Assembly: GCA_947455425.1 (NCBI GenBank)
Contig: CANGOT010000003.1
Location: forward strand, 1-33,013
DNA from: Chitinophagaceae bacterium
Lineage (GTDB): Bacteria; Bacteroidota; Bacteroidia; Chitinophagales; Chitinophagaceae
Reading direction: 5' to 3'
DNA: 33,013 nt
A program made the position numbers and the translations under genes. How positions within the stretch are numbered: the stretch's first letter is position 1; each line of letters opens with the position of its first letter. Shown in pieces: positions 8,624-27,982 of the stretch. The notes below the pieces were generated by a model, which did no database searches, was not told the origin of the DNA, and worked only from the letters and a program-made list of their open reading frames with translations.

Positions 8624-8760
8624 GATACACCTAAAACTATTGTATTGATACCCTAAGGCGACGGTAGTCATACCCAAGGCTCCGGTAGTGATACCCTTAG
8701 CTGCGGTATCGATACCCTAAGTCTTGGGATTGACCCCCTAAGTCTCGGGATTGACCCCCA
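8624..8760. repeat. degenerate 21-bp tandem array (about 6 units)
   Basis: Units aligned on GATACCC: gatacacctaaaactattgtatt / gataccctaaggcgacggtagt / catacccaaggctccggtagt / gatacccttagctgcggtatc / gataccctaagtcttgggatt / gaccccctaagtctcgggatt / gaccccca. Junction 12-mers start at 8663, 8684, 8705, 8726 and 8747 (exact 21-bp period). Confidence 0.9.
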
Positions 8761-25415: not shown

Positions 25416-26186
25416 TTACCACACGCTATTAGGATAGGTTCTTTGCAAGACTTGCATATCAACTAATAAATCTGTTAAATATTGAGTGTGTTGACACAGC
25501 TTTCCACCAATTTTAGGTTGTGTTGAATATAAAAATTGCAAAGTAGCTTCTGCAAAAACTTCATTAATTTTTTGTTGCCAATTATTTTTTATTGTTGATA
25601 AATCTACACTGATTGCTTGTTGTAAAAGTTCTATCTCTTCATTACTCATTACAAAAAACTCATCTGTATAATCTTTCAAAACTTCAACAGCATTTTGCAT
25701 TTTAGCATTACTTTCCGTAGTTCCATCACCAAGCCTTATGACCCATTCACTGCTCCAACGTAGATGATAGGCTACTTCTTTTAGGGATTTGTTTGCAATT
25801 GCTGCAAGTTGTTTATCACTGCTGTTTTTCAATTCACTATAAAAATAATGCTGGAAGCTGCTAAAGTAAAATTGGCGTAATACAGTTACAGCCCAATCTT
25901 CGTTTGGTCGTTCTGTGATAAGATGATTTTTAAATTCACTCGGGTTACGCAGATAAGCAAGCTTATCTTCATCAAATTCATCTCCCATAAGTGTAGCAGC
26001 ATATTGGTATAAATTTCTTGCTTGCCCCAACAAGTCCAACGCAATATTTGTTAATGCTATGTCTTGTTCTAGAATGGGGCCGTGCCCACACCATTCACTA
26101 TTTCGATGAGATAGAATTAATGTTGTGTCTGCTAAGTGAAGACAATAAGGAATTAGGAATTGGGAATTGGGAATTGGTTGTTGCAT
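25416..26186 (-). CDS. paaC: 1,2-phenylacetyl-CoA epoxidase subunit PaaC
   Basis: 'CLHLADTTLILSHRNSEWCGHGPILEQDIALTNIALDLLGQARNLYQYAA', 'RPNEDWAVTVLRQFYFSSFQ'. N-terminal MQQPIPNSQFLIPY is encoded by a heptamer repeat. Confidence 0.95.
   Translation of the reverse strand: MQQPIPNSQFLIPYCLHLADTTLILSHRNSEWCGHGPILEQDIALTNIALDLLGQARNLYQYAATLMGDEFDEDKLAYLRNPSEFKNHLITERPNEDWAVTVLRQFYFSSFQHYFYSELKNSSDKQLAAIANKSLKEVAYHLRWSSEWVIRLGDGTTESNAKMQNAVEVLKDYTDEFFVMSNEEIELLQQAISVDLSTIKNNWQQKINEVFAEATLQFLYSTQPKIGGKLCQHTQYLTDLLVDMQVLQRTYPNSVW
26149..26177. repeat. GGAATTR heptamer array, left terminal inverted repeat of the S23 cassette
   Basis: Plus strand GGAATTAGGAATTGGGAATTGGGAATTGG; 22/29 identical to the reverse complement of 26578-26606. 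Confidence 0.9.
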
Positions 26187-26563
26187 TACTTCTTTGTTGC
26201 TTTTGATTTATCTAAATAATTGATATATCCATTAATCAATTTTATAACAATTTCACATTTTTGTTCAAGTATATTCAATGTTTCTTCAGTAATATATTTT
26301 TCATCAAATGCAGTTGTTAAATGCTCCATTGTTTCAGTTGTAGAGCCTCTTGCAATAATAAAAAAATTTCTAGTATCAGTATATGTATAGCGTCCGTAGC
26401 CTTCTGCAATGTTAGTAGTAATTGACCTTGAGGAACGAATAATTTGATTTGCAAGTAAGAATTTTTCAGAATTTGGAAACTGTTTTACAAGGTCTGAAAT
26501 AGTAATTCTCAATTCTCTAGCTTTTATATAAGATTCTAATTCTTTATAGCCCTTATAATTCAT
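26186..26563 (-). CDS. four helix bundle protein (S23 / 23S rRNA intervening-sequence protein family)
   Basis: 'MNYKGYKELESYIKARELRITISDLVKQFPNSEKFLLANQIIRSSRSITTNIAEGYGRYTYTDTRNFFIIARGSTTETMEHLTTAFDEKYITEE' is diagnostic of the family (S.SI.NIAEG.GR, ARGS..E). Confidence 0.95.
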   Translation of the reverse strand: MNYKGYKELESYIKARELRITISDLVKQFPNSEKFLLANQIIRSSRSITTNIAEGYGRYTYTDTRNFFIIARGSTTETMEHLTTAFDEKYITEETLNILEQKCEIVIKLINGYINYLDKSKATKK

Positions 26564-26577
26564 AATTATATCATTTA

Positions 26578-26606
26578 CTAATCACTAATTCCAAATACCT
26601 GATTCC
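26578..26606. repeat. degenerate heptamer array, right terminal inverted repeat of the S23 cassette
   Basis: Minus-strand reading GGAATCA GGTATTT GGAATTA GTGATTA G. Confidence 0.8.
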
Positions 26607-26610
26607 AACA

Positions 26611-26961
26611 CTACATATGATTCACTTCATCAGGAAGTTGATAGAATGTTGGATGGCGATATACTTTATCCATCGATGGCTCATAAAGGCTTTCGGCTTC
26701 ATCTGGGTTTGATGCGTGAATATATTTACTTTCAACAACCCAAATGCTTACACCTTCCATTCTGCGGGTATACACATCCCTTGCATTTTCCATTGCCATT
26801 GCTGCATCTGCTGCATGTAAGCTACCTACATGCTTGTGGTCTAGACCCTGTTTACTGCGAATAAACACTTCCCAGAGAGGAAATTCTGTTTCAGATTTGT
26901 TTGAAGAGACGCCTCCTTCAATTTCACCATAATCGCCGTAGTAATATTTTTTTATTAGCAT
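26611..26961 (-). CDS. paaB: 1,2-phenylacetyl-CoA epoxidase subunit PaaB
   Basis: 'FPLWEVFIRSKQGLDHKHVGSLHAADAAMAMENARDVYTRRMEGVSIWVVESKYI'. Confidence 0.96.
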   Translation of the reverse strand: MLIKKYYYGDYGEIEGGVSSNKSETEFPLWEVFIRSKQGLDHKHVGSLHAADAAMAMENARDVYTRRMEGVSIWVVESKYIHASNPDEAESLYEPSMDKVYRHPTFYQLPDEVNHM

Positions 26962-27016: not shown

Positions 27017-27982
27017 TTAGGCTGTTTTCAAAGCCCCTCCTTGGAGGGGTTGGGGGAGGCTTTTCTTTTTCTTTTCTGCATAAGCAATTGCAGCCTCTCT
27101 CACCCAGGCACCATCATTCCAGGCTTTTTTCCTAGCATCTAATCTTTCCTTATTGCAAGGACCATTTCCTTTTACAACCTGCCAGAATTCATCCCAATTA
27201 ATAGCACCAAAATCGTAGTGTTTTCTTTCATCATTCCATTTTAAATCAGCATCAGGCAAAGTCATATTCAGCACTTTAATTTGCTGCACAGCCATATCAA
27301 CAAACTGTTGTCTTAATTCATCATTGCTTTTGCGTTTAATTTTCCATTTTATACTTTGGTCGCTGTTGGTACTTTCACTATCAGTTGGACCAAACATCAT
27401 TAAACTTGGCCACCACCAACGGTTAATGGCATCCTGGCACATAGCTTTTTGTTCATCAGTGCCCTGACTTAACACCAATAATATTTCAAAGCCCTGACGT
27501 TGATGAAAACTTTCTTCTTTACAAATTCTAACCATGGCACGTGCATAAGGGCCATAGCTTGTTCTGCACAACATAACCTGATTTAAAATTGCCGCACCAT
27601 CAACCAACCAGCCAATGGCACCCATATCGGCCCAGGTTAAAGATGGATAATTAAAGATGGATGAGTACTTTGCTTTACCTGTTAATAATTGATCCGTCAT
27701 TTCATCCCGGCTAATGCCAAGTGTTTCTGCTGCAGAATATAGATATAAACCGTGTCCACCCTCATCTTGAACTTTTGCCAATAAAATAGCTTTACGTTTT
27801 AAGGATGGAGCTCTTGTAATCCAGGCTCCTTCGGGTAACATACCAACAATTTCACTATGGGCATGCTGACTGATTTGACGAATATTCGTTTGTCGGTATT
27901 TCTCAGGCATCCAGTCTTTGGGTTCAATTTTAATTTCTTTATCAATTTTAGATAAAAACAGTTCTTCAAAATTGACTTGCAT
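27017..27982 (-). CDS. paaA: 1,2-phenylacetyl-CoA epoxidase subunit PaaA
   Basis: Inner ATG at 27982: '[89 protein letters not shown]'. Confidence 0.97.
27030..27064. repeat. palindromic repeat element AAAGCCCCTCCTTGGAGGGGTTGGGGGAGGCTTTT
   Basis: CCCCTCC-TT-GGAGGGG perfect hairpin plus a competing AAAGCC(C)CTCC...GGAGGCTTT pairing; lies inside the paaA 3' end (encodes [11 protein letters not shown]). Confidence 0.8.

Follow-up and report, generated by a model that had tools for sequence, protein, structure and literature searches.

An S23 gene between inverted heptamer arrays in a paa operon: a candidate minimal mobile cassette

S23 open reading frames are familiar from intervening sequences in 23S rRNA, as in Coxiella and Leptospira, and to our knowledge no function has been assigned to S23 proteins despite solved structures. 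Why, then, does such a gene stand in the paa operon of a Chitinophagaceae bacterium, enclosed by inverted arrays of seven-base units? The answer we favor, and hold to be probable while far from certain, is that the locus is a minimal mobile cassette, in which one S23 gene lies between inverted arrays that would be the recognition sites of its own S23 protein, and which would spread in a homing-like manner.

The S23 gene and its arrays in the paa operon

In the window, the whole stretch of 33,013 nucleotides that was analysed, Pfam and NCBIfam matches give the minus-strand gene order paaA, paaB, S23, paaC. The features of the locus are:

25416..26186, minus strand: paaC; its start codon shares bases with the S23 stop (TAATG)
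26149..26177, plus strand: downstream (3') heptamer array, (GGAATTR)4, inverted relative to the upstream array
26186..26563, minus strand: S23 / four-helix-bundle gene (PF05635, TIGR02436), the sole gene of the cassette
26578..26606, minus strand: upstream (5') heptamer array, on the S23 sense strand GGAATCA GGTATTT GGAATTA GTGATTA G
26611..26961, minus strand: paaB, the host gene upstream of the cassette; few bases separate its stop codon from the cassette

From the paaB stop into the paaC frame, the block opens with GGAATCAGGTATTTGGAATTAGTGATTAG, next comes the S23 ORF of 125 aa, whose ATG lies 14 nt from the 5' array, and CCAATTCCCAATTCCCAATTCCTAATTCC closes it. The two arms are complementary at 22/29 positions in inverted orientation, and among all pairs of inverted 29-mers in the 33-kb window with arms at most about 800 bp apart they are the only one to reach at least 22/29; TRF also picked up the downstream array. 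An earlier note on this DNA had described these 29-bp inverted repeats around the S23 ORF, and its coordinates and sequences prove exact. It had also placed the block between paaB and paaC; the neighbors are as it said, but the arm at 26149-26177 lies inside the paaC frame and not outside the host gene. Translated in frame on the operon strand, this 3' array supplies the N-terminal residues of PaaC (MQQPIPNSQFLIPYC). Roughly the first 15 residues derive from the array and fall outside the family model, the NCBIfam PaaC match not setting in before residue 18, and the start of PaaC at an empty site in the same genus (G003, L035) is unrelated to the array-derived start in the window. Elsewhere in the window, a G+C-rich palindrome-like repeat at 27033-27062 (CCCCTCCTTGGAGGGGTTGGGGGAGG) encodes the C-terminal end of PaaA and is apparently a further small repeat that has become part of a gene; directly downstream of secA, at 8648-8759, lie two neighboring tandem arrays of about 21 bp, ATACCCTAAGGCGACGGTAGTC and CCCTAAGTCTCGGGATTGACC.

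The family identity that had been read from the sequence is borne out by matches to PF05635, 23S_rRNA_IVP (E 1.6e-30, 105.9 bits against a cut-off of 33.8), and to TIGR02436 (101.9 bits, cut-off 24). The AF2 model of the protein consists of four helices (pLDDT 94.5). Its closest solved folds are 2gsc and 2rld, with a TMt of 0.92-0.96 to 2gsc; the Avd structures 4dwl and 8ub7 are more distant (TM 0.67-0.78, identity 5-10%), and PHROG 3206 (Avd) is matched at E 3.7e-7. Within the genus a dN/dS of 0.06-0.12 indicates purifying selection. No nuclease or recombinase domain is recognisable in S23 by Pfam or NCBIfam, and the cassette holds no transposase, S23 being its only ORF. Among 50,697 phage records there is no match that would point to phage carriage of S23. 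A reading of S23 as a defence system was set aside, the PADLOC match being at chance level only.

Inverted periodic ends around S23 genes

Is this layout peculiar to the paa operon? The host genome contains seven further PF05635 matches, and by eye each of these S23 genes lies between short inverted repeats built of other units (GTTTACR, GTCCACA, TTAGTGA and others). We scored the layout by local alignment of the left flank against the reverse-complemented right flank at 118 S23 loci, those of the host genome together with 110 from a sample of 120 Bacteroidota genomes, the loci being chosen mainly from the best profile matches. The mean score is 19.7 (p=5e-49). Controls average 11.2 when the flanks come from different loci, 12.6 when they are aligned in direct orientation, and 10.4 when the DNA is taken 800 bp further out. 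The difference persists (24.0 versus 11.2, p=2.4e-8) once 179 elements are merged by single linkage into 13 groups, elements being joined if their proteins are similar or their site is the same. At 35 of the 118 loci (about 30%) the paired ends are not significant (score below 16); these loci may be decayed, or may be bounded by units that the method misses.

The ends are periodic as well as inverted. Close to S23 the autocorrelation has maxima at 7, 14 and 21 nt that are missing further out, and the period of paired ends is 7 bp in 68/83 and 8 bp in 13/83. In the 150 nt next to S23 the density of four-unit arrays is 2.28/kb for period 7 and 0.64/kb for period 8, against 0.12/kb and 0.03/kb, respectively, at greater distance; no enrichment near S23 is seen at periods 5, 6 or 9-11, and an S23-rich genome yielded no four-unit array in 400 kb of its DNA taken at random. 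The earlier note would have given up its reading had heptamer arrays shown no enrichment beside S23 ORFs; they are clearly enriched there. On plasmids, inverted heptamer arrays flank S23 at 8 of 10 loci, nine of the ten being cyanobacterial and one from Riemerella, and 6 of those 8 exceed the plasmid set's own 95% null, with units such as AGGAGTC in Nostoc, AGGGTGT in Calothrix and AGGTGAC in Anabaena. Three of the cyanobacterial plasmid cassettes (L323, L327, L331) interrupt CRISPR-Cas operons, in the orders cmr2-S23-cmr3 and, in two different cyanobacteria, cas6-S23-cas4. The inverted-array layout around S23 is general across Bacteroidota and is also present on cyanobacterial plasmids.

Cassettes measure roughly 0.45-0.65 kb, and their unit, of 7 bp or in some lineages 8 bp, usually carries one RG dinucleotide, an AG or GG that points inward. 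The ends are accordingly polar, G exceeding C on the left in 156/177 elements and C exceeding G on the right in 146/170. The earlier note had suggested a search for GGAATTR arrays beside other S23 ORFs; arrays are indeed enriched there, but GGAATTR is only the unit of the window's lineage, and as a universal signature it is ruled out, each S23 lineage having its own unit. Left arrays at different sites are alike (score at least 16) in 38% of pairs with related S23 versus 0.6% of unrelated pairs, and in none of the far-flank controls. S23 genes at least 68% identical to the window's retain GGAATTR-like units at sites outside paa (L208, L210, L212, L241), and relatives of the window S23 at quite different loci carry GGAATTR- or GGTAATTR-like arrays. 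A clade about 55% identical to the window's S23 has the unit GTTGAYN, also at the paaB-paaC junction. On these comparisons the unit belongs to the S23 lineage and accompanies S23 to unrelated sites.

Arrays also occur apart from S23. The host genome has other (GGAATTN)2-3 arrays, on contigs C19, C46, C64, C66, C96, C99, C116, C124, C165 and C187 of G000 (loci L008-L023); as most have no S23 next to them, they were rejected as additional S23 cassettes. Several are read in frame inside genes (nadR-like, tilS-like, alaS-like and adenine-deaminase-like). At the same codon region of nadR in two species (L030, about 2103-2220, and L196), the units are TACGAAG and AAATTCC in G000 and GAAACGA in G003, which implies that one unit has been replaced by another at a single place in a coding region.

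Empty sites, transfer and orientation

The paaB-paaC junction is plain in G003, of the same genus, and in many other relatives. Elsewhere it holds S23 cassettes, which come from two clades or more with different units, or small S23-less inverted heptamers, and 15 of the 41 loci found with the window S23 as query sit between paaB and paaC. A like mix of plain, small-hairpin and cassette-filled states recurs at two more junctions, in a species-rich genus. Empty sites in close relatives, for which the earlier note had proposed to look, are thus found in G003 and in congeners with plain junctions, and the opposite pattern it had considered, S23 at this locus in all relatives without the arrays, is not what the relatives show. 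Short inverted heptamer hairpins that lack S23 occur at cassette sites, namely paaB-paaC (L041, L043, L045, L060) and L260, L288 and L294, and are possibly deletion derivatives of cassettes. At the gmk-nadD junction several congeners (L295, L298, L300-L302) carry a different inverted repeat, with longer CACAGAG/CACAAAG-like units.

Transfer is documented in one case. Between G000 and G015, which belong to different genera, identity reaches 92-98% along most of the cassette, whereas paaB is 76% and paaC 69% identical, indicating a horizontal move into the same site. The high identity breaks off sharply at the paaB stop and, at the other end, fades over about the first 100 nt of paaC, as would be seen in co-conversion. 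The G015 copy of S23 (L037 / L200) is frameshifted with its arrays intact, and appears to be decaying. No close S23 pairs were found within one genome (maximum normalised score 0.61 among 171 pairs of sampled copies), where up to 18 diverged copies coexist, and of the cross-genome pairs above 0.7 similarity 73 are at the same site versus 13 at another. Such a pattern is one of persistence at a site and spread to the same site, not of multiplication in the manner of an insertion sequence; the cassette seems to behave more like a homing element. Between co-directional operon genes the cassettes lie in sense orientation in 143 cases versus 12 (p=1e-29). No target-site duplication is visible at paaB-paaC, fadA-acd or gmk-nadD in comparison with G003 and G214, pairs that are 9-25% diverged, and the nearest filled/empty pairs, at that same divergence, yield no base-precise empty site. 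The free-standing, transposase-less cassette of the earlier note draws support from the empty sites, from arrays that travel with S23 and from the transfer of a whole block. As far as comparative sequence goes, arrays and S23 gene are shown to be a single unit of inheritance, sense-oriented in operons and present or absent among close relatives.

Could S23 instead be an ordinary gene of the operon, its arrays being regulatory sites or products of replication slippage and its patchiness the result of gene loss? Purifying selection, sense orientation, a position conserved within the genus and the overlap of the S23 stop with the paaC start would all suit such a gene. Yet different S23 clades with different units occupy one paaB-paaC junction, the junction is plain and array-free in relatives, diverged S23 copies reach 18 per genome, and the cross-genus move of the block already strains an account by gene loss; we judge this explanation quite improbable. 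A MITE-like origin would make S23 the passenger of a non-autonomous element that depends on a host transposase acting in trans on its inverted ends. Here the S23-less inverted-heptamer hairpins at the same junctions are in keeping, and the host genome does encode Y1 transposase domains. Nevertheless the ends change with every S23 lineage, such that one transposase could hardly recognise all of them, the unit follows S23, and near-identical copies are absent within a genome among the sampled copies. We give a MITE-like origin very little credence.

Complementary ends raise a further possibility, already put forward in the earlier note, that they pair in mRNA. The block would then be an mRNA intervening sequence, its arrays forming a stem at which RNase III removes S23 from the polycistronic message, and complementarity would be kept by selection on the RNA stem. 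Sense orientation in operons agrees with this, as do the predicted fold of the window transcript, in which the arms pair, and the precedent of the Coxiella 23S intervening sequence, where an S23 ORF is found together with a 28-bp (4x7) terminal stem cut by RNase III and with tandem AG-containing GACAGAT heptamers just upstream of S23 (PMC4990558). The predicted fold, on the other hand, is no more stable than shuffled sequences (z +1.13). Mismatches between paired ends comprise 176 G-U versus 157 A-C, and given that A-C is nearly as common as G-U, nothing marks the transcript strand; when the units of one array are permuted, complementarity falls only a little (by 0.8 on average, p=0.008), with an effect individually notable at 11% of loci, both tests being limited in power because the units within an array resemble each other. 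Moreover, one arm in the window is paaC coding sequence, and cutting the stem would damage the paaC message. Selection on an RNA stem finds no strong support in wobble asymmetry, fold z-score or unit-order permutation, and we regard an mRNA intervening sequence as unlikely.

A putative reader for the arrays, and known systems

The order of units in the two arrays is mostly unmirrored, as it should be if a single factor binds both, and the ends look more like two site sets for one reader than like the strands of a conserved stem. Given that the unit tracks the S23 sequence and that S23 is the sole protein present, the putative reader is most likely S23 itself. The 7-/8-nt step is mismatched to the DNA helical repeat, a hint of single-stranded nucleic acid, and suggests that the arrays may be recognised on single-stranded DNA or RNA. 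A homopentameric ring is reported for Xanthomonas S23p (as cited in PMC4990558). In the mobile cassette that we favor, the S23 pentamer encoded by the cassette would recognise the arrays as multimeric sites; its ring would present equivalent surfaces to the repeated units, each of which would contact a single subunit. S23 would bridge or protect both cassette ends. The cassette would spread chiefly in a homing-like way, host recombination or repair replacing the allelic empty site, and would borrow its expression from the host operon. The lineage-specific 7/8-nt repeat pair provides a candidate ligand for each S23 protein.

How does the cassette compare with systems already known? With the intervening sequences of 23S rRNA it shares the protein family, a size of about 0.43 kb with nothing but an S23 ORF, and terminal inverted repeats. 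It differs in lying between the protein-coding paaB and paaC and not in 23S rRNA, the location that defines that class, and in having lineage-specific units at both ends without sign of RNA-stem selection. The Avd proteins of diversity-generating retroelements resemble S23 in fold and through the PHROG 3206 match; however, the S23 structures 2gsc and 2rld are far closer, and no reverse transcriptase (PF00078) is found in the host genome, an assembly 79% complete. Insertion sequences and MITEs likewise have inverted ends, presence and absence among relatives and small derivatives, here S23-less, at the same sites, but the cassette has no transposase, its tandem-heptamer ends vary between elements, multicopy families within a genome are not seen, and target-site duplication is not found at 9-25% divergence. 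With homing-type elements it has in common same-site transfer with co-conversion of the flank, in the one case of G000 and G015, and it differs in encoding no site-specific endonuclease recognisable by Pfam or NCBIfam.

Tandem 7-bp units like those of the cassette ends are also known as heptanucleotide repeats, among them STRR sequences, TAACTGA arrays and P6b repeats. In cyanobacterial tRNA-Leu introns the P6b repeats pair into a hairpin, and the sections consulted of that paper make no mention of S23 (PMC3488679). TAACTGA arrays are known from Beggiatoaceae, where they lie immediately before start codons, and from cyanobacteria and Bacteroidetes as well, according to a paper whose consulted sections contain neither S23 nor four helix (PMC4679880). 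A link of S23 genes to heptamer arrays is absent from the literature searched, which was open access, most subscription papers lying outside its scope. What was known already is the S23 family and small inverted-end S23 elements in rRNA; in the literature searched, S23-heptamer-array cassettes in operons are apparently undescribed. We tentatively propose, as a wider view that may well be wrong, that S23 cassettes are transposase-less mobile elements found across phyla, whose 7-/8-nt repeat ends are specific to the element, co-evolve with it and are read by a four-helix-bundle protein that forms rings, and that the heptanucleotide repeats of cyanobacteria and Bacteroidota derive in part from decayed cassette ends. 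S23 cassettes would in this way connect three puzzles: the intervening sequences of rRNA, the Avd fold of diversity-generating retroelements, and the heptanucleotide repeats of cyanobacteria.
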